NCBI RefSeq assembly: GCF_004116625.1 | Contig: NZ_NXIE01000002.1 | Span: forward strand, 186,001 to 250,000 | DNA length: 64,000 nucleotides | Reading direction: 5' to 3' | Source: Halarcobacter mediterraneus | GTDB taxonomy: Bacteria; Campylobacterota; Campylobacteria; Campylobacterales; Arcobacteraceae | In this document: positions 48,943-64,000 of the stretch, piece after piece | Position numbering within the stretch: position 1 is the stretch's first letter | Layout of the letters: each line of letters begins with the position of its first letter | The notes under the pieces: model-generated | Database searches by the model: none | Told to the model about the DNA's origin: nothing | What the model saw: the letters and a program-made list of their open reading frames with translations, nothing else | Translations under genes and position numbers: made by a program

Positions 48943-51237
48943 ATGAATCTATTAAAGAAATCTTTAATAGCACCAACACTGGCGGTTTTATTGTATTCAA
49001 ACCTATATGCAAAGGAATCATATACTGTAGAATCAATGAGTTTAAAAGAGGCTATTGAGAACATATCGAAAAAAGTAAATATACCTTATATGGTAAATAG
49101 TAATTTAATAAAAGGTAAAACCTCACAAAAAATAGAAAATATAAGTGGGGTAAAAAATGCTTTAGATAAGGTTTTAGAAAATAGTGGATTGGAAGCTACT
49201 ATTATAGATGGAACTATTATTATAAAAAAGAAAAAGTTAAAAGAAAAAAATACTATTTTAAATAATAGTATTCATAAATTTGATGATATTATGGTAACAG
49301 GAGAACTTCAAGAAAGAAACTTACAAAATACCCATTCAAGTGTCTCTGTAATATTAGGAGAAAAACTAGATACATCAATGGATCAAGATTTATCAGATGT
49401 CCTTGAAAAAGTAGCAGGTATCAATGGAGTAGGAAGTGATTTAAATTTTGCTATTAGAGGAATGAAAGATAGTGGAGTTGTGGGAGAAGGTCAGACTATA
49501 TCTTATCAAGTTGATGGAACATATATCCCATCAAGTAGAGCTTTATGGGGAAGTTCTATTACAAGTACTTGGGATTTAGAACAAATTGAAGTTTTAAGAG
49601 GACCACAGTCAACGCAACAAGGACAAAATGCTATGGCTGGGGCTATAAATGTTAGAACAAAAGATCCTATTTTTGAAGAAGAGTATAAATTTAGAGCAGA
49701 TTATGCTTCTTTCAACGAGAAAAAATTAGCAACAGCTATAAATATTCCTTTGAATGAAAACTGGGCATTTAGATTAGCTGGAGAATATGCTTCAAATGAT
49801 GGAGATATAAAGCATATAACTACAGGTGAAGATGTAGGTAAAGGGGAAACAAAATATCTTAGGGGAAAACTAAGATATGCCAATGATAACTTAGATATGA
49901 TATTGACTATTGCAGATAACTATAGAGAAGTTCCTGAAAAAAATATTGATATAAATGAATATCCACATAGAAGAGTAGTTAGCAAAGATTACAAAATGGA
50001 AGTAGATTCAAATACTTATAATCTTAATATAAATTATGATTTTGATGATAAATGGAGTATTAAATCAAATAGTTCATATTTAGATAGTGAATATACTACA
50101 AAGTCAGATGGATTTATTAGAGGAGTGGATGATGAAGTTCTATCTGAAGAATTAAAAGTACTTTATACTGAAGATAAATTAAGACTTGTTGTTGGTTCTT
50201 ATTATAGTTTACATAAAGAAAAAGATTCATCTAAGCTTTCAGGAATGGAACTTACAAGATTTGGATATCCAGGAGTTTTTATGAATTCTACTGGGGAAGG
50301 AAATGATGAAACTACAAATTATGCACTTTTTACAGAACTAGAATATGAATTAAATAATAAATGGACAGTTATTGCAGGTCTTAGATATGATAAAGAGAAA
50401 CAAGTATATGATAGTTTTTCAACAACTACTGTTACACCTTATGACCCTGTTGGTTTTGCAAGTAGTAGTACAGAAGATAAAGATTCAAAATATGATGCAT
50501 TATTACCAAAGCTAGGACTTATATACACTATAAAAGAAGATATAACTACAGGTTTTACTATACAAAAAGGATATAGAGCAGGAGGAAGTGCAATTAATTC
50601 TTTAGGGCAGGAGTATGAATTTGATCCAGAATATACTACAAATTATGAGTTGTCATTTAGGTCATTACTTTTAGATAAAACACTTAAATTTAATACAAAT
50701 ATTTTTTATACAAAATATGAAGATATGCAAATATCATTAGTAGGTCCAAGTGGGAGTATATATGATAGTTATATTACAAATGGAGGAAAATCTTCAATAT
50801 ATGGAGCAGAAATTGAAACAGATTATGATGTAAATGAATCTTTAAATCTATTTTTTAATTTAGCATATGCAAAAACACAATTTGATGAATATAATGAAGG
50901 TGGAGTTGATTATAAAGGAAAAGAGTTCCTAAATGCTCCAAAATGGACTGGTTCTATAGGAGGTTCATATAAATTTAATAGAAATATTATGATGAATTTA
51001 TATGGGACATATACAAGTCATAGTTATGCCACTTTAGATAATACTGAAGAAACAAAATCTGATTCGGCTTTTATAACAAATACAAGTATCACTTATAAAT
51101 CAGATGATAATTGGTCTGCAAAATTATATGTAAGAAATCTTTTTGATAAAGAATATATAACATATAGAGGTCTTTATGATGTATCCCAAGCATCTGACCC
51201 AAGAGTAGTAGGTATTAGTTTTAACTATCAATTCTAA
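48943..51237 (+). CDS. TonB-dependent outer-membrane siderophore receptor with STN signalling domain
   Basis: A 764-aa receptor. Signal peptide about 1-23. The N-terminal STN/secretin domain (about 27-95; MSLKEAIENISKKVNIPYMVNSNLIKG) interacts with a FecR-type protein. The plug domain is at about 115-230 (LSDVLEKVAGINGVGSDLNFAIRGM, EVLRGPQSTQQGQNAMAGAINV). The beta-barrel runs to the end, closing with the aromatic signature VVGISFNYQF. It should import a ferric siderophore or similar chelate using TonB and induce its own synthesis through the upstream FecI/FecR pair. Confidence 0.94.
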   Translation: MNLLKKSLIAPTLAVLLYSNLYAKESYTVESMSLKEAIENISKKVNIPYMVNSNLIKGKTSQKIENISGVKNALDKVLENSGLEATIIDGTIIIKKKKLKEKNTILNNSIHKFDDIMVTGELQERNLQNTHSSVSVILGEKLDTSMDQDLSDVLEKVAGINGVGSDLNFAIRGMKDSGVVGEGQTISYQVDGTYIPSSRALWGSSITSTWDLEQIEVLRGPQSTQQGQNAMAGAINVRTKDPIFEEEYKFRADYASFNEKKLATAINIPLNENWAFRLAGEYASNDGDIKHITTGEDVGKGETKYLRGKLRYANDNLDMILTIADNYREVPEKNIDINEYPHRRVVSKDYKMEVDSNTYNLNINYDFDDKWSIKSNSSYLDSEYTTKSDGFIRGVDDEVLSEELKVLYTEDKLRLVVGSYYSLHKEKDSSKLSGMELTRFGYPGVFMNSTGEGNDETTNYALFTELEYELNNKWTVIAGLRYDKEKQVYDSFSTTTVTPYDPVGFASSSTEDKDSKYDALLPKLGLIYTIKEDITTGFTIQKGYRAGGSAINSLGQEYEFDPEYTTNYELSFRSLLLDKTLKFNTNIFYTKYEDMQISLVGPSGSIYDSYITNGGKSSIYGAEIETDYDVNESLNLFFNLAYAKTQFDEYNEGGVDYKGKEFLNAPKWTGSIGGSYKFNRNIMMNLYGTYTSHSYATLDNTEETKSDSAFITNTSITYKSDDNWSAKLYVRNLFDKEYITYRGLYDVSQASDPRVVGISFNYQF

Positions 51238-51240
51238 AAA

Positions 51241-51262
51241 TAAAGAGACATTCGTCTCTTTA
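51241..51262 (+). terminator. Terminator after the TonB receptor
   Basis: TAAAGAGAC pairs with GTCTCTTTA around ATTC directly after the stop, with a T-rich tail. It marks the left border of the type IV secretion region. Confidence 0.8.
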
Positions 51263-51394
51263 TAAAACCTTAAAATATAGCTACTAATACATTACATTTA
51301 AACCAACTCTTATTTTTATATAAAGATTTTAATACTTAATATTTTAGTATAATATATGACTTAAAAGATATCAAAATAATTTTTTTTTAAATTC

Positions 51395-51433
51395 AATGTT
51401 ACTTTTCTAAACAAATAAATTTAAATGTTACTT
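51395..51433 (+). repeat. Direct repeat AATGTTACTT upstream of virB2
   Basis: The 10-mer AATGTTACTT occurs at 51395-51404 and again at 51424-51433 in the 267-base gap before the secretion genes. It may be a regulator site. No tRNA or integrase att core is seen here. Confidence 0.4.
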
Positions 51434-51504
51434 ATAATTTATAATTTTATTTAATATTATATAAATATTTATATAATAATAAAATTATTTTAAAAGGAGT
51501 TTAA

Positions 51505-51777
51505 ATGAGAGAAAAGTCTCAGTTTTTAGTTTTGGTATTATTTTTAATTTTACCTAGTTTGGTTTTTGGTAGTGGTATTGAAAAAGCTAATACCTTAATG
51601 GATAATGTATATACAGCAATGCACGCAATAGCAATTATTACGGTAACAGTTTGTATTATGTGGGTTGGATATAAAATCTTATTTGGTGGAAGAGCATTAC
51701 AAGAATTTGGTGGTGTAATCTTAGGAGCTATTTGTATTGCTAGTGCTGCTGAAATAGCTGCATTTTTAATAAGTTAA
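51505..51777 (+). CDS. virB2: VirB2-type pilin
   Basis: A 90-aa small pilin of a type IV secretion system with two hydrophobic helices (about 38-58 and 65-88) after a signal peptide (about 1-22, ending VFGSG). The layout KANTLMDNVYTAMHAIAIITVTVCIMWVGYKILFGGRALQEFGGVI is typical of VirB2/TrbC: the mature pilin makes the conjugative pilus. First gene of the operon, preceded by AAAAGGAG, and 5 bases before virB4. Confidence 0.88.
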   Translation: MREKSQFLVLVLFLILPSLVFGSGIEKANTLMDNVYTAMHAIAIITVTVCIMWVGYKILFGGRALQEFGGVILGAICIASAAEIAAFLIS

Positions 51778-51782
51778 AAATT

Positions 51783-54539
51783 ATGGAACGAGAAATTCTT
51801 TTCAAAGGAATGACTCGACCTGCTATGCTTTGGGGAGTTCCTATCGTTCCGTTAGTTTCTGTTTCTGCAATTATATTATTACTTTCAATTTGGTCTTTAA
51901 AACTGTACTTAGCACTTATTATCTTTCCAGTTTTTTTAGTAATGCGAACAATGGCTTTAATTGATGTATTTATTTTTAGATTATTATTTTTAAAATTTAA
52001 AACAAATACTAACAATAAAAAATATTATGGTGCAAAAACATTTCATTCTGTGGAGTATAGAAAAATGCAAAAAAGAATTGATTTTCCTGAGGTTTCAGTA
52101 TTGGCATTGAATAAAAACCCTTCTTTTGAAAAGTTTATTCCTTATTCTTCATTAATTGCAGATGACATAGTAATAAATAAAGATTCTATGTTAATGACAA
52201 CTTGGGAAATAAGTGGCGTTCCTTTTGAATTGACTGATAAACAAAAAATTGAAGGACATAAAAAATCTTTAAATATGATTTTTAAAACTTTTTCAACTGA
52301 AAATGTAAGTTTTTATTTTCATAATATTAGACGAGATATAGAAGTAAATCTAAATGCAGAATATAAAAATAAATTTTTAGAAGAAACAAACACTAAATAT
52401 TATGAAAACTTTAAAAAAGGTAGCTTAAAAGCTAATAAACTTTATTTAACTCTGATTTATAATCCTTTTAGAGATAAAGTGGATAGATCATCATTTATAA
52501 AGCTTAATCCAAGAAAGCGTTATAACGAGTTAAAAATTTATATAAAAAAAATGCGTGAGTATTCAAGTCGATTAGAAGCTAACCTTAACGCTTTTAAAGT
52601 AGATAGATTAAAAGTTTATGAAAAAGAAGGCAATAGTTATTCAAGTCAATTGGAATTTTACAATTATCTAATTGGTGGGAAAAATACTAAAGTTAGAGCA
52701 TTAAATGCACCTTTAAATGAGTATTTAATAGGAGCTCTTAGGAATTTACAATTTAATTCGGATACTGTTCAATTAAATTATAATGATGGTGGCAAAAATT
52801 TTGCACGAGCAATAGAAATAAAAGATTATACAAGCGAAACTTATATTGGAATACTAAATAGCCTTTTATATCTTAATGTAAATTACACAATCACTCAATC
52901 TTATGATCCTATTCAAAAACATGAAGCAAGAAGTAGATTAAAAAAACAACATGGTAGATTAATGAGTTCAGAAGATGATTCAATAACTCAATTAGAACAG
53001 TTTAGTACAGCTTTAGATGAACTTGCAAATAATGAAATTAGTTTTGGAAATTATCATTTTTCAATTTTAGTTTTCTCTGATACTTTAAAAGGAGTAAAAG
53101 AAGATACTAATAAAGTTATAACAGCTTTAAATGATTTAGGATTAAGTGTTACTTTAGCAGATATTGCACTTCCTGCAACTTATTTTTCACAATTTCCTAC
53201 AAATTATCATTTAAGACCTAGAGTTAGTTTATTAAGTTCTAAAAATTATAGTTCTTTAATAGCTTTGCATAATTTCCCAAACGGTCGAAAATCTAACAAT
53301 GCTTGGGGAGACGCAATCACAATTTTAAAGACTACTAACAATCAACCTTATTATTTTAATTTACATCAATTTTCATCTAAAAATGATTTTGGGGAGTTCC
53401 CTCTAGGAAACTTTACAGTTATAGGACAAAGTGGATCAGGTAAAACTAACTTTTTAGGTTTTATTTGTAACCAACTTTTAAAGTATGCTAATAAAGAAAC
53501 ATTTCCAGATAATGTTCCAGATGAAAAACAAAAAATGACTTTAGTTTATCTTGATAAAGATAAAGGAGCTTTAGCAAATATATTAGCAGGTGGTGGACGT
53601 TATTTATCTTTAGCTAATGGAGAACCAACAGGATTTAATCCTTTTATGGTTGAGAATAATCCTACAAACATAAGAAGTTTAAATACATTAATAAAAATCT
53701 TAGTAACAAGAAATGGAGAGATTTTATCTACAGCTGATGAAAAGAAAATAGCAAATGGGATTGATTTCATTATGAATGAATTTTCAAGAAGTGAACGAAA
53801 GTTTGGTATTTCTCTTTTATTAGAAAATATGACAAAAGATTTTAATGATGACAACTCATTAAAATCACGATTGGAATTATGGAAAAATGGTAAACAATTT
53901 GGGTGGGTATTTGACAATGAATATGATTCTTTAGACTTCCCTGACGAAATTAATTTTTTTGGAATAGATGGAACTGAATTTTTAGATGATAAAGATGTTA
54001 GTGCTCCTATGAGCTTTTATATTTTATGGAGAGTAACTAATCTTATTGATGGTCGAAGATTTGGACTTCTAATTGATGAATGTTGGAAATGGTTAGAAAA
54101 TTCTTTAGTTCAAGAAATGGCAAAAGATAAGTTAAAAACAATTAGAAAGAAAAATGGTATTTTAGGTTTTGGAACTCAAAGTGCTAGTGATTTATTAGAA
54201 CTTGATATTGCTAAAACTATTGTTGAACAATCTGCAACTTCTATTTTCTTTTACAATGATAAAGCAACTTTTGATGATTATGTTAAAGGTTTTAAATGCA
54301 CAGAAAAAGAGTTTAAAACGATTGAAAATTTTGTAAAAACAGATTATAGATGTTTGATTAAAAGAACAGATGAAAGTGTTGTAACAAGTTTAGACTTAAG
54401 TACTATAGGAAAAGAAAATATTTCAATTCTAAGTACAGGAGAAGCAAATGTTGAGTCTATAGAAAAAATATTTGCACAAGAAAATCTTAGTCTTGAAGAA
54501 AAAGTTAATCAACTTCGAGAATATTACAAGGCTAGTTAA
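51783..54539 (+). CDS. virB4: VirB3-VirB4 fusion ATPase of a type IV secretion system
   Basis: A 918-aa protein. Residues 1 to about 75 are a VirB3-like segment with two TM helices (KGMTRPAMLWGVPIVPLVSV). The rest is a VirB4/CagE ATPase with N-terminal domain about 110-500, Walker A GQSGSGKTN near residue 548 and Walker B FGLLIDECWKW near 760. It powers pilus assembly and substrate transfer. The fusion is typical of Campylobacter-type systems. Confidence 0.94.
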   Translation: MEREILFKGMTRPAMLWGVPIVPLVSVSAIILLLSIWSLKLYLALIIFPVFLVMRTMALIDVFIFRLLFLKFKTNTNNKKYYGAKTFHSVEYRKMQKRIDFPEVSVLALNKNPSFEKFIPYSSLIADDIVINKDSMLMTTWEISGVPFELTDKQKIEGHKKSLNMIFKTFSTENVSFYFHNIRRDIEVNLNAEYKNKFLEETNTKYYENFKKGSLKANKLYLTLIYNPFRDKVDRSSFIKLNPRKRYNELKIYIKKMREYSSRLEANLNAFKVDRLKVYEKEGNSYSSQLEFYNYLIGGKNTKVRALNAPLNEYLIGALRNLQFNSDTVQLNYNDGGKNFARAIEIKDYTSETYIGILNSLLYLNVNYTITQSYDPIQKHEARSRLKKQHGRLMSSEDDSITQLEQFSTALDELANNEISFGNYHFSILVFSDTLKGVKEDTNKVITALNDLGLSVTLADIALPATYFSQFPTNYHLRPRVSLLSSKNYSSLIALHNFPNGRKSNNAWGDAITILKTTNNQPYYFNLHQFSSKNDFGEFPLGNFTVIGQSGSGKTNFLGFICNQLLKYANKETFPDNVPDEKQKMTLVYLDKDKGALANILAGGGRYLSLANGEPTGFNPFMVENNPTNIRSLNTLIKILVTRNGEILSTADEKKIANGIDFIMNEFSRSERKFGISLLLENMTKDFNDDNSLKSRLELWKNGKQFGWVFDNEYDSLDFPDEINFFGIDGTEFLDDKDVSAPMSFYILWRVTNLIDGRRFGLLIDECWKWLENSLVQEMAKDKLKTIRKKNGILGFGTQSASDLLELDIAKTIVEQSATSIFFYNDKATFDDYVKGFKCTEKEFKTIENFVKTDYRCLIKRTDESVVTSLDLSTIGKENISILSTGEANVESIEKIFAQENLSLEEKVNQLREYYKAS

Positions 54540-54543
54540 TAAG

Positions 54544-54608
54544 TCGGATAAGGAAACTTAAAAAATAGTCCTACTTGTAGGATCTACTTTTTAAGGCAAA
54601 CTTACCGA
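54544..54608 (+). ncRNA. Putative structured RNA element between virB4 and virB5
   Basis: In the 121-base gap, arms 54557-54574 and 54577-54595 pair over 18 bp with one mismatch and one bulge (CTTAAAAA.TAG.TCCTAC with its complement, 2-nt loop). They are enclosed by a second helix, 54544-54552 (TCGGATAAG) with 54601-54608 (CTTACCGA). The block is followed by two CGTTAG units. The nested arrangement suggests an RNA fold (attenuator, processing site or small RNA). Its function is unknown and the helix prediction is by eye. Confidence 0.5.
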
Positions 54609-54660
54609 AAACAACCGTTAGGGCGTTAGTCTTAGAAATTAAATTTATAAAGGAGAAAAA

Positions 54661-55401
54661 ATGAAAAAAATTGGTTTAAGTATATTACTTTCAAGTAGTT
54701 TACTTTTTAGTTCGGGTATTCCTGTTGTGGATGCTGTTGCAAATGCTCAATCTTTAGCTCAAAATATACAAGAAATAGCTACTTGGGCAGAAGAAGCTTC
54801 AAGATGGATTGAAACTACAACGCATTATGCAGATCAAATACAAGCTTATGAAGATCAGCTTTTAAGTCAAACAGAGATTAGGGATTCAGTACAGTTTATT
54901 AAGGATATACGAGACTTTAGTAATTTTGCTAAAAATTATAATGGTAGTTATATGAATCTAACAACTGATGTTTTAAGTGGTAATTCAATAATAGCAATTA
55001 AAGCAAGAAGTTTATTCGATAGATACAATATTTTTGATGATTGTGAAGAGAATTATTATACAAGTGTAGAAAAGAATATTTGTAAAAATAAAATGACTAG
55101 GAGAGTACAAGAGATAGCAGTATATCAAGAAGCAAATACAAGTTTAGGAAGTATTACAGATGATCTAAATAGTTTAGCTAATAAATTGGCTAATTCAACT
55201 GATATCAAAGAATCTCAAGACATTAATAATGCTATTCAAATGAAAATGGCTCAAGTCGAGGTAATAAAAACTCAAATAGAGCTTTTTAATCAACAAAGTA
55301 AGAGCTTGGATCAAATAGATATAAAGAATAAAGAACAAGAGTTTAAAAAGAGCTTGAGAAAAGCTGATACTCAAGATTATAGTAATGCTTTTGGAAATTA
55401 A
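54661..55401 (+). CDS. virB5: VirB5/TrbJ-type minor pilin protein
   Basis: A 246-aa exported protein: signal peptide about 1-18, then a long alpha-helical, coiled region (NAQSLAQNIQEIATWAEEASRWIETTTHYADQIQAYEDQLL). Two cysteines at about residues 122 and 135 (FDDCEEN, KNICKNK). VirB5 proteins sit at the pilus tip. Its last 16 residues are nearly the same as the end of the next lipoprotein. Spaced 121 bases from virB4 by a structured element. Confidence 0.82.
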   Translation: MKKIGLSILLSSSLLFSSGIPVVDAVANAQSLAQNIQEIATWAEEASRWIETTTHYADQIQAYEDQLLSQTEIRDSVQFIKDIRDFSNFAKNYNGSYMNLTTDVLSGNSIIAIKARSLFDRYNIFDDCEENYYTSVEKNICKNKMTRRVQEIAVYQEANTSLGSITDDLNSLANKLANSTDIKESQDINNAIQMKMAQVEVIKTQIELFNQQSKSLDQIDIKNKEQEFKKSLRKADTQDYSNAFGN

Positions 55402-55618
55402 AAGCAGCTCATTAAAAATAAAAGGAAAAAAAATGAAAAAGACAATTTTAATAGGTTTAACTTTAGGGTTAGTTTTTGGTTTTACTGGTTGTAGTGATAA
55501 AGAAAAAAAAGCAAAAGATATTGCAGCTGAAAAAATTATTGTAGATCACGAAAAAGAAGAGGCATTTAAAGAGAGCTTGAGAAAAAAAGATACTCAAGAT
55601 TATAGTAATGCTTTTGGT
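55342..55618 (+). repeat. Duplicated coding tail shared by virB5 and the next lipoprotein gene
   Basis: The 55-base block at 55342-55396 (encoding FKKSLRKADTQDYSNAFG) recurs at 55565-55618 (encoding FKESLRKKDTQDYSNAFG) with only a few base changes. It is a local duplication of the end of virB5 in the same frame. Confidence 0.85.
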
Positions 55619-55645
55619 AGTCCTGTTTCAAAACATAAAAATTAA
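55433..55645 (+). CDS. Small lipoprotein between virB5 and virB6 (EexN/TrbK position)
   Basis: A 70-residue lipoprotein. The start at 55433 is chosen by AAAAGGAAAAAA before it; an upstream in-frame start overlapping virB5 is less likely. Lipobox FTGC near residue 19, then a short charged tail DKEKKAKDIAAEKIIVDHEKEE ending in the repeated FKESLRKKDTQDYSNAFG. The location and size match entry-exclusion lipoproteins of conjugative systems, but no diagnostic motif is present. Confidence 0.7.
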   Translation: MKKTILIGLTLGLVFGFTGCSDKEKKAKDIAAEKIIVDHEKEEAFKESLRKKDTQDYSNAFGSPVSKHKN

Positions 55646-55655
55646 GTAGTTTAAA

Positions 55656-56570
55656 ATGGGAATGTTTGTAAGTATTGGAGATGAAATAGATGATATTTTT
55701 TCATTAATAGATAGTGCAGCAACTTCTGATTTAATGACTGAATTATCAATTTTATTTAGTATTTCAATTACTATTATGATTACAATTAAAGGTTATGCAA
55801 TATTAGCAGGTAAAACACAAGATCCTATAAGAGAAATTTTATGGGATCTTGTGTTAAAAGCAGTGATTATAACTTTTGCTTTAAATATAGGTGGTTGGCT
55901 TACAATGGTTATTGATGCAATGAATGGTATTCATCAATGGGCAGGTGGGAGAGTCTCTTTATATGCTGAAATGGATCAACTCTTTGCAAAAGCTAAAGAG
56001 GTTGCAAATATGGCATATGAAAAAGGGAATATGTTTAGCGGTACTATTGCTTTACTTTTAGTTTACTTAGGTTTCTTCATTGGAGCTATACCAGCACTTA
56101 TCATAACTATTGTTACCTCTTTTACATTAAAGATTTTAGTTATGATTGCCCCTTTTATGTTCTTTGCTCTTTTCTATGGTTGGTTAAAAAATATGTTTAC
56201 TCAATGGCTTTCTTTATTTTTTGCTAATACATTGGCGGTTCTTTCTGTTACATTAATTTTTAGTGCTGTTGTAAATAAATTTGAGAATTTTATCTCTCAT
56301 TCTGGTAACTCTATTAATAATGGTTTAGATCCTTTTTATGTAGGTGTTCAAGTAATTATAGTTGGTGTTCTATTAGTAGTATTAGTTTATGTTGCTTATC
56401 ATATAGCAGAAAAAGTAGCAACGGTTAGCATGGAAAGTGTAATGAAAAGTAGTTTCGGAAGAACTCTACAGGATGGTAAAAATATAGGTGGTGCAAGTGG
56501 TTCTGCTGCTGGTCGCAGTTATACAGTTGTTAGAACCCAAGTCGATAAATATAGAGGTAAAAAAGGGTAG
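55656..56570 (+). CDS. virB6: VirB6/TrbL-type membrane protein
   Basis: A 304-aa inner-membrane channel component with about six helices (around 25-45, 62-85, 130-150, 155-180, 185-210 and 220-250). The conserved central region LIITIVTSFTLKILVMIAPFMFFALFYGWLKNMFTQWLSLFFANTL matches VirB6. A cytoplasmic Gly/Ser-rich tail follows. It belongs to the inner-membrane complex that conducts DNA. Located 10 bases after the lipoprotein. Confidence 0.92.
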   Translation: MGMFVSIGDEIDDIFSLIDSAATSDLMTELSILFSISITIMITIKGYAILAGKTQDPIREILWDLVLKAVIITFALNIGGWLTMVIDAMNGIHQWAGGRVSLYAEMDQLFAKAKEVANMAYEKGNMFSGTIALLLVYLGFFIGAIPALIITIVTSFTLKILVMIAPFMFFALFYGWLKNMFTQWLSLFFANTLAVLSVTLIFSAVVNKFENFISHSGNSINNGLDPFYVGVQVIIVGVLLVVLVYVAYHIAEKVATVSMESVMKSSFGRTLQDGKNIGGASGSAAGRSYTVVRTQVDKYRGKKG

Positions 56571-56605
56571 TAAAAAATGTATATGGAAAATTCAAAGGAA
56601 AATAA

Positions 56606-56752
56606 ATGGTAAGAATAGTTTTAAATAGTTTATTTTTAATACTTATAATTAGTATAACTGGTTGCCAAAAAAATGTTAGTACTCCAAATAAAGTTTTTGA
56701 TTCTAATAATTGGGAACCAGTAAATAAAATTAAAAAGGAAAATAATGGCTGA
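56606..56752 (+). CDS. virB7: VirB7-like lipoprotein
   Basis: A 48-aa gene overlapping the virB8 start by 8 bases. The signal helix ends in a lipobox ITGC (Cys20), and the mature part contains NNWEPVNK, the Trp-x-Pro-Val-Asn pattern seen in VirB7 lipoproteins that bind the VirB9 outer-membrane ring. Preceded by AAAGGAAAATAA. The size fits VirB7 in other systems. Confidence 0.72.
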   Translation: MVRIVLNSLFLILIISITGCQKNVSTPNKVFDSNNWEPVNKIKKENNG

Positions 56753-57413
56753 AAAATATGATTCAGAAAAAGCCTTAGATTTTGAGACAAGCAAACAAGA
56801 ACTTTATGATAAGAGTCAAAGAAGGGCGTGGGGTGTTGCTATTACTATGACTTTTGTAACTTGCTTACTTGCTATTGCTATTATAGTTTTAGTTCCATTA
56901 AAAACTGTTGTTCCTTATATGACAATGGTCGATAAAAATGGAAGAGTAGAGATTATATCTACGGTAACTACTGAAAAATTATCAAAACAAGAAGCTTTAG
57001 ACAAATATTTTGCAAAGGTATATGTGCAAACAAGAGAACAATATTTCTATGATATGTTACAAAAAGATTATATTGAAACACAAATCTTTTCTTCTGAAAA
57101 TGTAGCTGCTGATTATAGAAAAATTTTTAGTGGCGACGATTCAAGAGACAAAGAATTAAAAGATGATGTAGAAATAAGTGTAAATGTAAATAGTGTTGTT
57201 CTGTCTGAAAGTGCAGGAACAAAAATCGCAACAGTTAGGGCAAAACTATCTTCAAAAAATTTAACTACAAATACAGAATTGATAAGAAGTTATAAGGTAT
57301 TTACTTTCTCTTATGACTATTATCCTGATCTTAAACAAAATGCAAAAGAAAGACTTGTAAATCCTTTAGGATACAAAGTTTTAACATATAGAATTGATGA
57401 CGAGGTAAACTAA
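56745..57413 (+). CDS. virB8: VirB8 assembly protein
   Basis: A 222-aa bitopic inner-membrane protein: cytoplasmic N-terminus (about 1-30), TM helix about 32-52 (WGVAITMTFVTCLLAIAIIVLV), and a periplasmic NTF2-like domain (about 70-222) including YVQTREQYFYDMLQKDY. It links inner-membrane and core complexes. The stop overlaps virB9 by one base. Confidence 0.94.
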   Translation: MAEKYDSEKALDFETSKQELYDKSQRRAWGVAITMTFVTCLLAIAIIVLVPLKTVVPYMTMVDKNGRVEIISTVTTEKLSKQEALDKYFAKVYVQTREQYFYDMLQKDYIETQIFSSENVAADYRKIFSGDDSRDKELKDDVEISVNVNSVVLSESAGTKIATVRAKLSSKNLTTNTELIRSYKVFTFSYDYYPDLKQNAKERLVNPLGYKVLTYRIDDEVN

Positions 57414-58297
57414 TGAAAAAATTAATAATAGTTTTAGCACTAATTTTAAGTAACTCTTTTTCTGCTGAAATTCCTGAAAAATCAACTTTTGATAAAAGAG
57501 TAAGATTCGCAGTTTTTAATCCTGAGGAAGTATTTAAAATTTATGCAAAAGATGGATATACAACAGTTTTAAAATTGGAAGATGGGGAAAAAGTTATAAA
57601 TGCAGCAACTGGTTTTTCAGAGGGGTGGGATATTACAAATAAAAATAATTTTGTTTTTATTAAACCTCAAGCTTATATGTCTCAAGTTTCAGTTTCAGAA
57701 AATGGGGAAACAATAAATAAAAAGAGTGTTATAAAACCTAGCTATAAATGGAATACTAATTTGATTATCACTACTGATAGAAGAGAGTATTTAATTGACT
57801 TAAGACTAGCATTTAATACAGTATTTTTTAAAATAAATTTTGTTTATCCAGATACAAAAATAAAAGAGACAAAAGAAGCTCTTATTGCAAAAGCAAAAGA
57901 AGAAGAACAAAAATATATTAAAAAAGAGTTAAACAAAACTACAGTTCCAAGAAACTGGGAATTTTTTATGAATGTAAATAAAGATAGTGAGGGTATTGCT
58001 CCTAACTTTGCATATGATGATGGAGTCTTTACTTATTTAGGTTTTGATACAACTAAAACAATTCCTAGTGTGTTTTTATTTGAGAATGAAGAAGAAAGTA
58101 TCCTTAATACTCATATTGAAAAAGATGGAAAATATGATGTTTTAGTAATTCATAAAACTGCAAAAATGATTATTTTAAGATCTGGTAAAAAAGTAGTTGG
58201 TCTATTAAATGAAGGATACGCAAAAAATCCTTTAGAAAAAACAAGATATACAACAACCGACTCAGTTAAAAGAGAGGTAATACAAAATGGAAAATAA
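57413..58297 (+). CDS. virB9: VirB9 core-complex protein
   Basis: A 294-aa exported protein: signal peptide about 1-18 (SNSFSAEIP), N-terminal beta-domain (KRVRFAVFNPEEVFKIYAKDGYTTVLKLEDGEKV) and C-terminal domain about 200-290 (YDDGVFTYLGFDTTKTIPSVFLFENEEES). It forms the outer-membrane ring with VirB7 and VirB10. The end overlaps virB10 by 11 bases. Confidence 0.94.
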   Translation: MKKLIIVLALILSNSFSAEIPEKSTFDKRVRFAVFNPEEVFKIYAKDGYTTVLKLEDGEKVINAATGFSEGWDITNKNNFVFIKPQAYMSQVSVSENGETINKKSVIKPSYKWNTNLIITTDRREYLIDLRLAFNTVFFKINFVYPDTKIKETKEALIAKAKEEEQKYIKKELNKTTVPRNWEFFMNVNKDSEGIAPNFAYDDGVFTYLGFDTTKTIPSVFLFENEEESILNTHIEKDGKYDVLVIHKTAKMIILRSGKKVVGLLNEGYAKNPLEKTRYTTTDSVKREVIQNGK

Positions 58298-59387
58298 TGA
58301 ATTAGACAATCGTTTAACTGAACTAGATAAAGATGAGAATAACAGAAATAGAAGATTACAAGCATATGCTTTAATGATTTTTTCTATACTTGTTTTAATA
58401 CTTTTAGTTGTTGCTTTTTATTTTAATGTGATTAAAGATGATGAAGAGGACAAAAAACAAAAAGATGATAATTCACATACAACTAGAGTAATGCACAAAG
58501 ATTTTGAAAGAGAGAAAAAAGCAACTCCTACACTAAAAGAAATTATGAGACCTTTTAATCCTCCACAGATAGAACCTATTGAAAGAAAACCTCTTTTTAC
58601 AGAAAAAGAGAAAATAAATTATAATCCTATGATTGTAAAAGGTTCAAGTAAAGCATTAATAGAAGATAAAAGTAGTCCAACTTTTAAAACCCCTACTATG
58701 GATATCCCAACTTCTAATTTTAAAGATAGTTTTAACCCTGATTATGTAGGGGAAGTTTTTCAACCTTCAAGTGCAAGTGTTAGAAAGTTTGATCCTAACT
58801 TTTTATTACCTAAAGGTACTTATATAGGTTGTTCATTAAATACTAGGCTTGTAAGTAGTATAAAAGGTGGTATTTCTTGTACGGTTAGTGATAATGTTTA
58901 TAGTGCAAACGGAAATATTTTATTAGTTGAAAGAGGGTCAAAGATAACTGGAATGTTTAAAAACGATCAAATGAATGATGGAGTTAATAGAATATTTGTA
59001 ATTTGGCAAGAAATAACGACTCCTAATAACTTAGTTATTCCTGTATTTAGTGGTGCTTCTGACACTTTAGGTGGTAGTGGTATAGAGGGTTGGGTAAATC
59101 ATAAATGGATGTTAAGATTTGGTTCTGCCATTATGCTTAGTGCAGTTGATGATATATTTAATGTTCTTGCTTATCAAATTAATGATAGAAATAATACAGA
59201 AGATAACAATATTGACTATACAGAAAACACAAGAGAAAATGCAAAAGATATGGCAAGTATAGCTTTAGAAAACTTTATTAATATAAAACCTACTCTTTAT
59301 AAAAATCAAGGGGATTTAGTAGGTGTTTATGTAAATAGAGATATTGACTTTTCAAAAGTTTATAAACTATCTAAAAATAGGGATTAA
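58287..59387 (+). CDS. virB10: VirB10 core-complex protein
   Basis: A 366-aa protein that spans the cell envelope. TM helix about 28-50, a Pro/Lys-rich periplasmic linker (about 65-165) and the C-terminal TrbI/VirB10 domain about 170-365 with LLPKGTYIGCSLNTRLVSSIKGGISCTVSDNVYS, ERGSKITGMFK and SGIEGWVNHKWMLRFGSAIMLSAVDD. It gates the outer-membrane pore. 2 bases from virB11. Confidence 0.94.
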   Translation: MENNELDNRLTELDKDENNRNRRLQAYALMIFSILVLILLVVAFYFNVIKDDEEDKKQKDDNSHTTRVMHKDFEREKKATPTLKEIMRPFNPPQIEPIERKPLFTEKEKINYNPMIVKGSSKALIEDKSSPTFKTPTMDIPTSNFKDSFNPDYVGEVFQPSSASVRKFDPNFLLPKGTYIGCSLNTRLVSSIKGGISCTVSDNVYSANGNILLVERGSKITGMFKNDQMNDGVNRIFVIWQEITTPNNLVIPVFSGASDTLGGSGIEGWVNHKWMLRFGSAIMLSAVDDIFNVLAYQINDRNNTEDNNIDYTENTRENAKDMASIALENFINIKPTLYKNQGDLVGVYVNRDIDFSKVYKLSKNRD

Positions 59388-59389
59388 CT

Positions 59390-60394
59390 ATGAGTATATC
59401 TTTAAAAAAATATGCAAAAAAATATTTTGGAGACTTTTTAGAAGATAATGAGATATTAGAAATTGCTTACAATGGTGGAGATTCTATTTTTACTCAAAAC
59501 TATAAAGGAGAATGGAAAGAACATATTACATTACTTAATTTCGACTCCTCTTTTGCTTTTGCAACAAGTGCAGCAAGTTTTAAAGAAGATGTTATAAAAG
59601 AAACAAAATCAATATTAAGTGCTATTTTAGTAAATGGAGAAAGGACACAAATTGTTATTCCTCCAGCTACTAAAAAAGATATTATTAGTATAACTATTAG
59701 AAAACCATCTAACACTCGTTATACTTTAGATGATTATAAAAAACAAGGTATGTTCAAAGAGTTAATACAGATAAAAGACAATGAAACTAATCCAAAAGAT
59801 CAAGAGCTTTTAGAACATTATGAAAAAAAAGAAATTGAACAGTTTCTAAAAAAAGCCGTAGAATATGGTAAAAATATTGTAATTGCAGGAGAAACAGGAA
59901 GCGGAAAAACTACTTTTATGAAATCATTAATTGATTTTATTCCTGAGGACGAAAGAATTATAACAATTGAAGATGTAGAGGAAATAAAATTTACAAAGCA
60001 CAAAAATTATGTACAATTATTTTACCCTAGTGAAGCAAAAGAAGGAGATTTTTTAACAAGTGCAAGTTTATTAAAATCTTGTTTACGTATGCGACCTGAT
60101 AGAATACTCTTAGCAGAGTTAAGAGGAGCGGAAACTTACGATTTTATCAATGTATTATCAAGCGGTCATGGGGGTTCAATGACTTCTTGTCATGCAGGGT
60201 CGGTTAATGAAACATTTACAAGATTAGGACTAATGACTTTACAAAACCCTCAAGGGCAAAAACTACCCTTTGAAATAATACAAAAAAACTTAAAAGATGT
60301 TATTGATATTGTTGTTCATATGACAGCACATAAAGGTAAAAGAGTAATTACAGATATTTATTTTAAAGGGGCAAACAATGTTAGCTCTAAATAA
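59390..60394 (+). CDS. virB11: VirB11 traffic ATPase
   Basis: A 334-aa hexameric ATPase with N-terminal domain about 1-140, Walker A GETGSGKTT near residue 166, Asp box TIEDVEEIKF, Walker B-like RILLAELRGAETYDFI and the His box SSGHGGSMTSCHA. It cooperates with VirB4 and VirD4 in pilus assembly and DNA transfer. The end overlaps virD4 by 17 bases. Confidence 0.95.
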   Translation: MSISLKKYAKKYFGDFLEDNEILEIAYNGGDSIFTQNYKGEWKEHITLLNFDSSFAFATSAASFKEDVIKETKSILSAILVNGERTQIVIPPATKKDIISITIRKPSNTRYTLDDYKKQGMFKELIQIKDNETNPKDQELLEHYEKKEIEQFLKKAVEYGKNIVIAGETGSGKTTFMKSLIDFIPEDERIITIEDVEEIKFTKHKNYVQLFYPSEAKEGDFLTSASLLKSCLRMRPDRILLAELRGAETYDFINVLSSGHGGSMTSCHAGSVNETFTRLGLMTLQNPQGQKLPFEIIQKNLKDVIDIVVHMTAHKGKRVITDIYFKGANNVSSK

Positions 60395-62222
60395 AGGTAA
60401 AGTAACTTTCTTACTTATAGTTGATTTATTTTGTACTTATTTTATAAGTGGTGTAGTAATTTTCCTTGTAAATGATATGAGTTTATGGGATATTGCAAAA
60501 TACTATAATTACACTTTTACGTATAAAGCTTTAATTCAAAATTATCCTCTTGCTTACTCTTCTTTTCTATATACTTTTTTATTTTTTACAGTTTTAGTCT
60601 CAATAATTCCATTTCTTCCACAAGGTAAAAGTTTACATGGATCAGCAAGATTTGCTAAAAAGTGGGAAATTGTAAAAATGAAACTTTTTTCTCAATCTGG
60701 ACTTATTGTCGGAAAATTTAAAGGTAAGTTATTAAGATTTGATACTCAAGAGTTTGTAGCTTTAGGAGCTCCAACAAGAAGTGGTAAAGGTGTTTCTATT
60801 GTTATACCGAATTTATTAGAATGGAAAGAATCTTGTGTGGTTCTTGATATTAAACAAGAATGTTTTGATTATACCGCTAAATATAGAAAAGAAGTATTAC
60901 AAAATGATGTTTACTTATTTAATCCATTTTCTTATAAAACAAATCATTATAACCCTTTAAGTGTCATTAATATGGAAGATATAGAAAATAGAGATAAACA
61001 ACTATTAGATTTTGCAAATTTATTATATCCTCTTCAAGGTTCAGAACAAAACCAATTCTTTAACTCTCAATCCCAAAACCTTTTTATTGGACTTTGTTAT
61101 TTATATAAAGATTTAGCTCTTACAAGTAAAGGAAAAGAATTTTTAGAAGATTATGAATTAAATGTAGAATTTACAATGTATGGTATTCTTAAACTTAGTG
61201 AAGGATTTGAGATAGAACAAGAATCAGAAAGTTATATTGATGATGATACTGGAGAAGTAGAAGAGGAAGAAGCACAAACATTAAAAGGTCTTGATGATCT
61301 TTATGAATACTTAATATTTTTAGAAATTCTATCAGAAGAAGCAAAAGAAAGATTAGGCTCTTATATCAATATCAAATCAGTAAATACTAAATCATCTGTT
61401 GAAAGTACATTTAATACGCCTTTATTGATCTATCGAAATGAACCAATAAGAACCGCAACGAGTAAAAGTGATTTTAGTTTAGAAGATGTAAGAAAAAAGA
61501 AAATGACAATTTATTTAGGAATTACCCCTGATAATTTAGAAATAAGTAAACCTATCTTAAATATCTTTTTCTCTCAATTTATTTCTTTAAATACTAAAGA
61601 GTTACCAGTTAAAAATAAAGAACTTAAATACACTTGTTTAGCTCTTATGGACGAATTTACAAGTATCGGTTATATGCCTATACTTTTAAAAGCAGTTTCT
61701 TATATTGCTGCATACAATATAAGACTTATGACAATTTTCCAATCAATTTCACAACTCGAAGCACCTACCCCCGAGGGATACGGAAGAGAAGGGGCAAAAA
61801 CTTTATTAAACAATCATAAATTAAAAATCTTTTTTGCTCCTGATGATGTAGATGAATCGGAGAAATTATCGAAGAGATTAGGAGATACAACAAGGGTAAT
61901 AAAATCTAAATCATACTCAAGTGGTAGGAGTGTTTTAGAACATGGTACAAGAGGAGAAAATAAAAGTGAAGCAAGAAGAGCTTTAATGTTACCGCAAGAA
62001 TTAAGAGAAATGGGGCAAGAAAATGAACTTATTACAATGGCTAATGAGAAACCTATTTTTTGCAGTAAATCTTTTTACTTCAATGATCAATATTTTATGG
62101 ATAAGTTTAAAAAAGTATGCTTGCAATTAAAGCAAGTTAAAGGTCTACCAAATAGAGAACAATTAGAAAATGCTGTTAATAGCAATGAATTAAATATACA
62201 AATAAAAAATATAAAAGGATAA
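60378..62222 (+). CDS. virD4: VirD4-type coupling protein
   Basis: A 614-aa type IV coupling ATPase that links the DNA-relaxase complex to the channel. Two N-terminal TM helices (about 10-30 and 60-80), Walker A GAPTRSGKGVS near residue 129, Walker B LALMDEFTSIG near residue 420, and an acidic insertion EVEEEEAQ (about 293-302). Its presence marks the system as conjugative and not only an effector injector. Confidence 0.95.
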   Translation: MLALNKGKVTFLLIVDLFCTYFISGVVIFLVNDMSLWDIAKYYNYTFTYKALIQNYPLAYSSFLYTFLFFTVLVSIIPFLPQGKSLHGSARFAKKWEIVKMKLFSQSGLIVGKFKGKLLRFDTQEFVALGAPTRSGKGVSIVIPNLLEWKESCVVLDIKQECFDYTAKYRKEVLQNDVYLFNPFSYKTNHYNPLSVINMEDIENRDKQLLDFANLLYPLQGSEQNQFFNSQSQNLFIGLCYLYKDLALTSKGKEFLEDYELNVEFTMYGILKLSEGFEIEQESESYIDDDTGEVEEEEAQTLKGLDDLYEYLIFLEILSEEAKERLGSYINIKSVNTKSSVESTFNTPLLIYRNEPIRTATSKSDFSLEDVRKKKMTIYLGITPDNLEISKPILNIFFSQFISLNTKELPVKNKELKYTCLALMDEFTSIGYMPILLKAVSYIAAYNIRLMTIFQSISQLEAPTPEGYGREGAKTLLNNHKLKIFFAPDDVDESEKLSKRLGDTTRVIKSKSYSSGRSVLEHGTRGENKSEARRALMLPQELREMGQENELITMANEKPIFCSKSFYFNDQYFMDKFKKVCLQLKQVKGLPNREQLENAVNSNELNIQIKNIKG

Positions 62223-62225
62223 AAA

Positions 62226-62666
62226 ATGAATAAAATAAAATTATTAGGAAGTTTAGCAATTACTGGATTATTATTAAGTGGGTGCTCTCAAAAAGCACCA
62301 GATCCTAAACCAGTTGAAAACTGGGATAAAGGATCTTCTTTAACTATTAATAAATCTCTTTTATTAAAACAAACTGCAAGTGTACCAAAAGATCCTTTTT
62401 TATCTACAAATAATTGGACTTATCAAGTTAATGCAACAAAAAAAGATAAAGAACTTTTTAGTAATGAACAAATTGTTAAAACTTTTTTAGTTGCACATAA
62501 TGCAAAAGAGATAATTATAGTAGGTAGAAATGATTTAATAACAGATTATAGAGATTATTTTACAAATAATCAAGTTACAGCTTCAATTAAACTCCAACCA
62601 GTTGTTCCAAAGGAAGAAAATTTTAATACAGTAAATATACTATTTTTTAATAAGGTTGAAAAATGA
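62226..62666 (+). CDS. Cag12-like conjugation lipoprotein
   Basis: A 146-aa lipoprotein with a signal peptide and lipobox LSGC (Cys20), then a short mature domain with DPKPVENWDKGSSLTINKSLL and NYRDYFTNNQ-type strands. Lipoproteins like this follow virD4 in Campylobacterota T4SS operons and resemble the Cag12 family. The assignment is based mainly on length, lipobox and position. The next gene starts before its stop (4 bases). Confidence 0.7.
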   Translation: MNKIKLLGSLAITGLLLSGCSQKAPDPKPVENWDKGSSLTINKSLLLKQTASVPKDPFLSTNNWTYQVNATKKDKELFSNEQIVKTFLVAHNAKEIIIVGRNDLITDYRDYFTNNQVTASIKLQPVVPKEENFNTVNILFFNKVEK

Positions 62667-63298
62667 AAAAAATAATAGTGAGCTCTTTAATGAGCTCTAT
62701 TTTTACAACAACACTTTTAAGTCAAGATTTTTCATTTGCTGAGTTTACAGGAGATAAAAAATTAGCTTGTGAAGCTGTTCTTTGTTTATCTACTTCAAAT
62801 CGTCCAAGTGAATGTGAACCATCAATAGAAAAATATTTTTCTATACTTAGAAAAAAAGCAGAAGATACCTTAGAAGCAAGAAAAGATTTTTTAGCTCTTT
62901 GCCCTGTTGGAGATAGTGCAGAAGCAGATAAAGAGTTTCAAAATTTAAGAGACAATATAATCCCTTATATAACGGAAAATTGCTCTATTGAAAATTTAAA
63001 TCGAATAGAGTATGGAGAATATTATAAAAGAGATAGAAGAATTAATCCTGAGCTTACTAGATCTTGTGAATTATTAATGAGTAGTTCATATACTTACTTA
63101 AACCCTAAATATACTTGTTCAGGAGAATGGTATATACTTGAAGAATGGAACAGAGGTACAGTTCTTGAAAGAATCTCAGAAAAAGAATTTAGACAATTAC
63201 CAAGAAAAGAAACAAAAGTAAAAATGTTTGGAGATAATGAGACAGCATATTATAAATATGTTCCAATAAAAAAAGATTGTTGGGTATTTGAAAATTGA
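62663..63298 (+). CDS. TrbM/KikA-like conjugal transfer protein
   Basis: A 211-aa exported protein: signal peptide about 1-20 (LLSQDFSFA), then the TrbM signature FTGDKKLACEAVLCLSTSNRPSECEPSIEKYFSI...FLALCPV with paired cysteines. It has an unusually long Cys-containing C-terminal extension (RSCELLMSSSYTYLNPKYTCSGEW...KDCWVFEN). It is a conjugation accessory protein whose mechanism is unclear. Confidence 0.85.
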   Translation: MKKIIVSSLMSSIFTTTLLSQDFSFAEFTGDKKLACEAVLCLSTSNRPSECEPSIEKYFSILRKKAEDTLEARKDFLALCPVGDSAEADKEFQNLRDNIIPYITENCSIENLNRIEYGEYYKRDRRINPELTRSCELLMSSSYTYLNPKYTCSGEWYILEEWNRGTVLERISEKEFRQLPRKETKVKMFGDNETAYYKYVPIKKDCWVFEN

Positions 63299-63424
63299 AA
63301 GAATAAAAGTAAACAACATTAAGAAAAAAAAGATATAATTTATTTTTATATAAAATAAAGAGATACTTTGATTAATAAAATATTATTAATATTATTTACT
63401 TTACACTTATTAGGAGTTAAGATA

Positions 63425-63919
63425 ATGGCAGAAGAACATATTATTAAATTTAGTGAATATCATGATTTAGGTTTTGATATTTATGAAGCAAGTGATGCTT
63501 CTCTTAGATATAGCAATTTATTTATGGGAAATCGTACAAAAGAGTTTGATGATGAGCCAAGAAATTTAGCTCCTAGTAAAACTTCTGAAGATGAAGAGGA
63601 TATGAGGGCAAATATGGGAATTTTTCCTGTTTTTGCTGGAAAAGTTAGACTTACTTGGCATGATTATAATGATAATCCAATTGAATATAGTTTTGATTTT
63701 AATGATATCTTTCCTGATAAGACTATTCCTTATCCAAAAGAGTTAGAAGATCTAATTATTTGGGAAGAGCCTTTAGAAGATGATCCTGGTATTATTTTAG
63801 AAATAATTAATAGAACTCTTAATATTTATACTATAGTTGATATAGATACACTAATTCCTGGAACAAATAAAATAAAAACTATCAGGTACCATGAAAAAGT
63901 ATATACTAAAGAGTTTTAA
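63425..63919 (+). CDS. Hypothetical protein of the conjugation operon
   Basis: About 164 aa from the ATG at 63425, chosen because TTAGGAG precedes it; an in-frame TTG 19 codons earlier would add a hydrophobic segment resembling a signal peptide, so export is not excluded. The product is acidic with an aromatic-rich C-terminal half (GKVRLTWHDYNDNPIEYSFDFNDIFPDKTIPYP). I recognise no family. Confidence 0.65.
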   Translation: MAEEHIIKFSEYHDLGFDIYEASDASLRYSNLFMGNRTKEFDDEPRNLAPSKTSEDEEDMRANMGIFPVFAGKVRLTWHDYNDNPIEYSFDFNDIFPDKTIPYPKELEDLIIWEEPLEDDPGIILEIINRTLNIYTIVDIDTLIPGTNKIKTIRYHEKVYTKEF

Positions 63920-63922
63920 TAA

Positions 63923-64000
63923 ATGGGAAATATTCTTTCTAAAAAAAATGTATCTTCTCACTCTTTAGATGAAAAAGATTGGGAACTTTATAATGACAAT
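63923..64000 (+). CDS. Partial gene running off the right edge
   Basis: Begins MGNILSKKNVSSHSLDEKDWE at 63923, three bases after the previous stop, and continues past the window end. 26 codons are visible with no frame break. No family can be assigned from this part. Confidence 0.55.
   Translation, partial: MGNILSKKNVSSHSLDEKDWELYNDN

Follow-up and report, generated by a model that had tools for sequence, protein, structure and literature searches.

The window, that is, the whole stretch of 64,000 nucleotides from Halarcobacter mediterraneus analyzed here, contains a type IV secretion system (T4SS) operon of 12.4 kb (51505–63919), which runs from virB2 through virD4 in the order virB2, virB3-virB4 fusion, virB5, small lipoprotein, virB6, virB7-like, virB8–virB11 and virD4. 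Pfam matches were obtained for nine genes of this operon. Most of the genes overlap or are 2–15 nt apart, the latter being the spacing given in the preliminary description, but 31 nt follow virB5. The apparent gap of 174 nt between virB6 and virB8 is filled by an unlisted lipoprotein ORF of 48 aa (56606–56752, lipobox ITGC), which is probably VirB7. Between the end of virB4 (54539) and the start of virB5 (54661), a gap of 121 nt is present. Its GC content is 31%, versus 28% for the operon and 13–23% for the other gaps of at least 10 nt; the gap is indeed GC-richer, but modestly rather than far. The features in and around this gap are listed below, with reference to G068, a genome from another genus of the same family that carries two T4SS copies.

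51783–54539, plus strand: virB3-virB4 fusion gene, upstream of the hairpin (PF05101 and PF03135; 59% identical to G068)
54543–54612, plus strand: whole conserved hairpin element, GTCGGATAAGG..CCGAAAAC, 70 nt (covariance model R1, window 91 bits and G068 101.7 bits; alignment)
54544–54552, plus strand: 5' arm of the outer helix, TCGG-A-TAAG, with bulged A at 54548 (column pair 9:64 is A-U in the window and U-A in G068)
54553–54556, plus strand: 5' side of the internal loop, GAAA; GCAAA in G068 (fold, alignment)
54557–54568, plus strand: 5' arm of the inner helix, CTTAAAAAATAG (column pair 20:53 is A-U in the window and U-A in G068)
54569–54583, plus strand: variable tip, sequence not conserved (alignment)
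54584–54595, plus strand: 3' arm of the inner helix, CTACTTTTTAAG (columns 24:49: A.C mismatch in the window, A-U in G068)
54596–54600, plus strand: 3' side of the internal loop, GCAAA; identical in G068 (fold, alignment)
54601–54608, plus strand: 3' arm of the outer helix, CTTACCGA (fold, alignment)
54616–54629, plus strand: two CGTTAG units (54616–54621 and 54624–54629), outside the element and not conserved in G068
54650–54655, plus strand: Shine-Dalgarno (SD) sequence AAGGAG of virB5 (unpaired with the hairpin present; mean unpaired probability 0.82 around SD-ATG)
54661–55401, plus strand: virB5 (PF07996; 44–45% identical to G068 VirB5)

The nested hairpin previously described, with an outer helix (54544–54552/54601–54608) enclosing an inner hairpin (54557–54595), is both the MFE and the centroid fold, and its mean pair probability in a 470-nt context is 0.97, with 0.95–0.97 as the range for the element. 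It consists of an outer helix of 8 bp from which an A bulges, a 4×5-nt internal loop, a 12-bp inner helix and a variable tip; written as RNA, these are the outer helix UCGG-(A)-UAAG/CUUACCGA, the internal loop GAAA/GCAAA and the inner helix CUUAAAAAAUAG/CUACUUUUUAAG, followed by the tip. The 18-nt arms reported as an 18-bp pair do pair with each other, but the pairs number about 16 and are interrupted by an A.C mismatch and a bulge. The two CGTTAG units exist as well, but they lie outside the interval 54544–54608 with which they had been described and have no conserved counterpart in G068, the sole homologue; the conserved element does not include them. The pairs of the hairpin are all Watson-Crick and the minus strand folds equally well, so folding cannot separate RNA from single-stranded DNA.

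Chosen for looking structured, the 70-mer at 54543–54612 folds at −21.5 kcal/mol, with z = −5.0 against its own shuffles (−2.4 to −3.0 when flanks are included), and its energy is in the top 0.14% among the 70-mers of the window. However, when the 12.4-kb operon was shuffled with its dinucleotides preserved, 4 of 12 shuffles held a 70-mer at least equally stable, and the window itself has stronger folds, for example inside virB6. By energy alone, the hairpin goes only weakly beyond chance. We dropped folding energy as sole evidence because shuffled operons equal it. The same equality would be expected of a hairpin arising by chance in an AT-rich gap, an explanation that we regard as extremely unlikely: sequence and pairing persist in G068 although the proteins have diverged by about 40%, and this homologue refutes chance unless the G068 copy was very recently acquired.

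In both T4SS copies of G068, a homologous hairpin is located directly upstream of virB5, and the sequence just 5' of virB5 reads GTCGGATATGGCAAACTTATAAAATAG, tip, CTATTTTATAAGGCAAACATACCGAAAAC. About 89% of the non-tip columns (50 of 56) are identical between the window and G068, while protein identity is 59% for VirB4 and 44% for VirB5 and noncoding DNA 5' of virB2 aligns poorly. A near-unchanged hairpin at the same place in an otherwise very different relative indicates a real conserved element. Moreover, all 20 pairs derived from the window sequence alone are kept in G068 and none is broken; two double compensations (columns 9:64 and 20:53) each change A-U to U-A, and the sole window mismatch (A.C, columns 24:49) is a pair in G068. 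If the 5 substitutions are placed at random, the probability that all pairs are kept is 0.0002 and that of at least two double compensations is 0.003. The G068 hairpin folds with z = −7.2, versus −5.0 for the window, and its internal loop is exactly two-fold symmetric, GCAAA/GCAAA, reading 5'-G[GCAAA]C-3' on both strands. The covariance check thus yields a lone homologous element in which two pairs have changed in compensation on both sides and every pair is intact, which supports a conserved structure. This covariation comprises two pairs in two independent sequences (window and G068), and the column-shuffle control (126/500) is powerless with n = 2, so that the evidence for conservation is good rather than overwhelming. 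Judging from the sequence comparison, we consider the hairpin a genuine, conserved and uncatalogued cis element of two T4SS lineages.

The element is rare. Covariance model R1, built from the two sequences (window and G068), scores credibly at only three places among 104 family genomes: the copy in the window (91 bits) and both copies in G068 (101.7 bits). Samples of 397 genomes from the phylum and 399 from the order contain no other credible copy. The best outsider, a match of 35.5 bits in G165, lies inside a cytochrome-like coding gene with several pairs broken and was discarded as chance, and weak matches of 21–27 bits in other genomes were rejected because they lack the loop motif. In Rfam release 15, neither the window hairpin nor that of G068 has a match at the gathering threshold, the best scores being 17.6 bits for the window (preQ1-II, gathering 47) and 18.5 bits for G068 (mir-62, gathering 70). 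DNA similarity searches with the hairpin returned RBS-like A-rich matches only. Exact 15-mer scans of genome and viral contigs gave many matches, whose scanned stretches were without the other arm or the fold, and scans for VirB4 in the genome and viral contig collections found no relatives.

VirB4 homologues occur in only four other genomes of the family, namely G064, G068 (two copies), G075 and G086. Between virB4 and the hairpin, G068 has a lipoprotein gene that is homologous to window 62226–62666, and thus the hairpin goes with virB5 rather than with virB4; its distance to the virB5 ATG is 48 nt in the window and 36 nt in G068. The three sister T4SSs (G064, G075 and G086) have no hairpin, and their slot between virB4 and virB5 holds other genes or nothing: the lipoprotein gene only in G064, and the lipoprotein gene plus a 66-aa ORF in G075 and G086. 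The T4SS operons of Campylobacter pTet/pCC31 type are homologous, with VirB4 about 55% identical, but differ in that their slot contains Rha-family, ssb and hypothetical genes, as in the Campylobacter and Helicobacter plasmids compared here, and the hairpin was not found in pTet-type plasmids. The VirB4 proteins of G075 and G086 are 99% identical. Their 66-aa ORF between the lipoprotein gene and virB5 (L029 and L030) is strongly diverged and its flanks are nearly identical; this slot, which corresponds in position to that of the hairpin, is hypervariable. The lipoprotein gene belongs to the Cag12 family (PF13117) and is found after virD4 in the window but after virB4 in G064, G068, G075 and G086; it has moved within the operon. 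In the VirB4 tree, G068 groups with G075 and G086, then G064, and the window is outside. The hairpin distribution is out of step with this tree, and a minimum of two loss or two gain events is required to explain presence in the window and G068 with absence from the others.

Such a patchy distribution could point to an element acting at the DNA level, that is, a folded-strand recombination site or mobile hairpin (attC-like or MITE-like) inserted in a variable T4SS slot. The similarity between the window and G068 has sharp edges, the slot is a hot spot whose gene content differs among relatives and includes the hypervariable ORF in G075 and G086, both strands fold, and the bulge, unpaired spacer and variable tip recall integron attC sites, which have an extrahelical base, an unpaired central spacer and a variable terminal structure. 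However, the hairpin lacks the R-box consensus (RYYYAAC/GTTRRRY), its base being GTCGG/CCGAAAAC and not complementary R boxes, and its bulge interrupts the outer helix, not the L helix; no attC-like sites were found in the window, and there are no attC arrays. No intact integron integrase was found in the genome of the window (G000), whose only integron-integrase-like gene contains interrupting stops and scores below the cut-off, and none is clear in G068. In addition, the hairpin is present as a single copy per T4SS and nowhere else in the 104 family genomes, unlike a mobile repeat, and in both cases it is directly upstream of virB5. Taken together, we regard a DNA-level element as unlikely. 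The interrupted integrase-like gene of G000 lies at L384 8027–8990 (C1:774027–774990), with no attC sites found nearby. The oriT of a MOBP conjugative element was also dropped as a candidate, since a relaxase search limited to PF03432 gave no cognate match in G000 (two in G068). With a PF03432 relaxase nowhere in the genome, the window T4SS appears to be orphan or non-conjugative. No integrase was recognised beside the operon (51505–63919 and flanks).

At the RNA level, an intrinsic terminator or attenuator would lower expression from virB5 onward, and attenuation was among the roles first proposed. The inner hairpin of the window does have an A-tract before and T5 after its upper stem, but the T run forms part of the stem, with AAGGCAAAC after it, and a terminator scan of 50900–64000 called 4 sites, the hairpin not among them. 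In G068 the inner stem is nearly all A-U and is followed by GGCAAAC, without a U tract. Termination or attenuation is thus very unlikely.

A regulatory RNA switch, or a protein-bound or autoregulatory leader, might instead toggle virB5 translation like the leaders of gonococcal traH and parA. The hairpin is located in the virB5 leader, and its conserved unpaired GCAAA/GCAAA internal-loop bases are as expected for a ligand or protein site. There is also a T4SS precedent: stem-loops in gonococcal T4SS gene leaders control protein levels, and mutations in the 5'-UTR stem-loops of traH and parA in the gonococcal genetic island (GGI) alter these levels strongly (PMC8716806). Those stable stem-loops are likewise just upstream of T4SS genes, but they are promoter-proximal and occlude the SD and start codon (PMC8716806), whereas the window hairpin is inside the operon with the SD open. 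The mean unpaired probability of SD-ATG with the element present and after its deletion in silico is 0.82 versus 0.79 in the window and 0.74 versus 0.66 in G068; the predicted openness of the virB5 SD and start codon is thus unaffected by removing the hairpin, which argues against an SD-masking switch. An SD-occluding switch of the GGI traH/parA type was rejected on the values with the hairpin present. Moreover, no Rfam riboswitch matches at a useful score, and a regulatory switch or protein-bound leader for virB5 translation has, in our opinion, a low probability.

The explanation that we tentatively prefer, with slightly less than even confidence, is an intercistronic cis element that makes virB5 onward a separate expression unit via mRNA processing or stability or via protein binding. 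As modeled, the hairpin most likely acts as RNA, and we infer that its role probably concerns mRNA processing or stability. With a gap of 121 nt, stop-start coupling of virB5 to virB4 is ruled out, and virB5 has its own AAGGAG. The two-helix hairpin with its symmetric purine-rich internal loop would break translational coupling to the upstream gene, and the strong ribosome-binding site of virB5 would stay open beside it. The hairpin would probably be recognised by an RNase, for example RNase III, or by a protein that binds double strands, and the bound protein or RNase would process or stabilise the virB2–virD4 messenger at this point; virB5 and the downstream genes would thereby be expressed separately from virB2–virB4. 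Intercistronic hairpins for processing or stability by RNase III or RNase Y likewise place a long, interrupted duplex between the genes of a polycistronic operon, and to our knowledge a symmetric GCAAA/GCAAA loop is not a known feature of them. H. pylori, of the same phylum, has RNases J and Y as well as an RNase III that cuts stem-loops of its rRNA precursors (PMC11821409).

The role in setting the ratio of pilus parts, as suggested in the preliminary description, is plausible because the hairpin is directly upstream of virB5, which encodes a minor pilus component. A more specific and rather doubtful proposal is an undescribed structured-RNA family, whose symmetric GCAAA/GCAAA loop would bind a T4SS-encoded or host protein and set the dose of VirB5 at the pilus tip. 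Apart from a few models, little is understood of how one T4SS operon gives unequal amounts of its parts, and an uncatalogued, conserved hairpin exactly before virB5 offers a small concrete target for post-transcriptional dosing of pilus components. Being known from two T4SS lineages only, it is too rare so far for general importance to be claimed.

Three further observations were made in the window. The strongest 70-nt fold is formed by a 17-nt inverted repeat, AACACAAGATCCTATAA/TTATGGGATCTTGTGTT (55814–55855), within the virB6 coding sequence. On the minus strand, 35506–35616 matches the Ribosomal S15 leader (RF00114) with 39.7 bits against a gathering threshold of 39.5 bits. In the operon, the C-terminus of virB5, FKKSLRKADTQDYSNAFG (55330–55398), is repeated in the next small lipoprotein as FKESLRKKDTQDYSNAFG (55565–55617), a recent-looking segment duplication.
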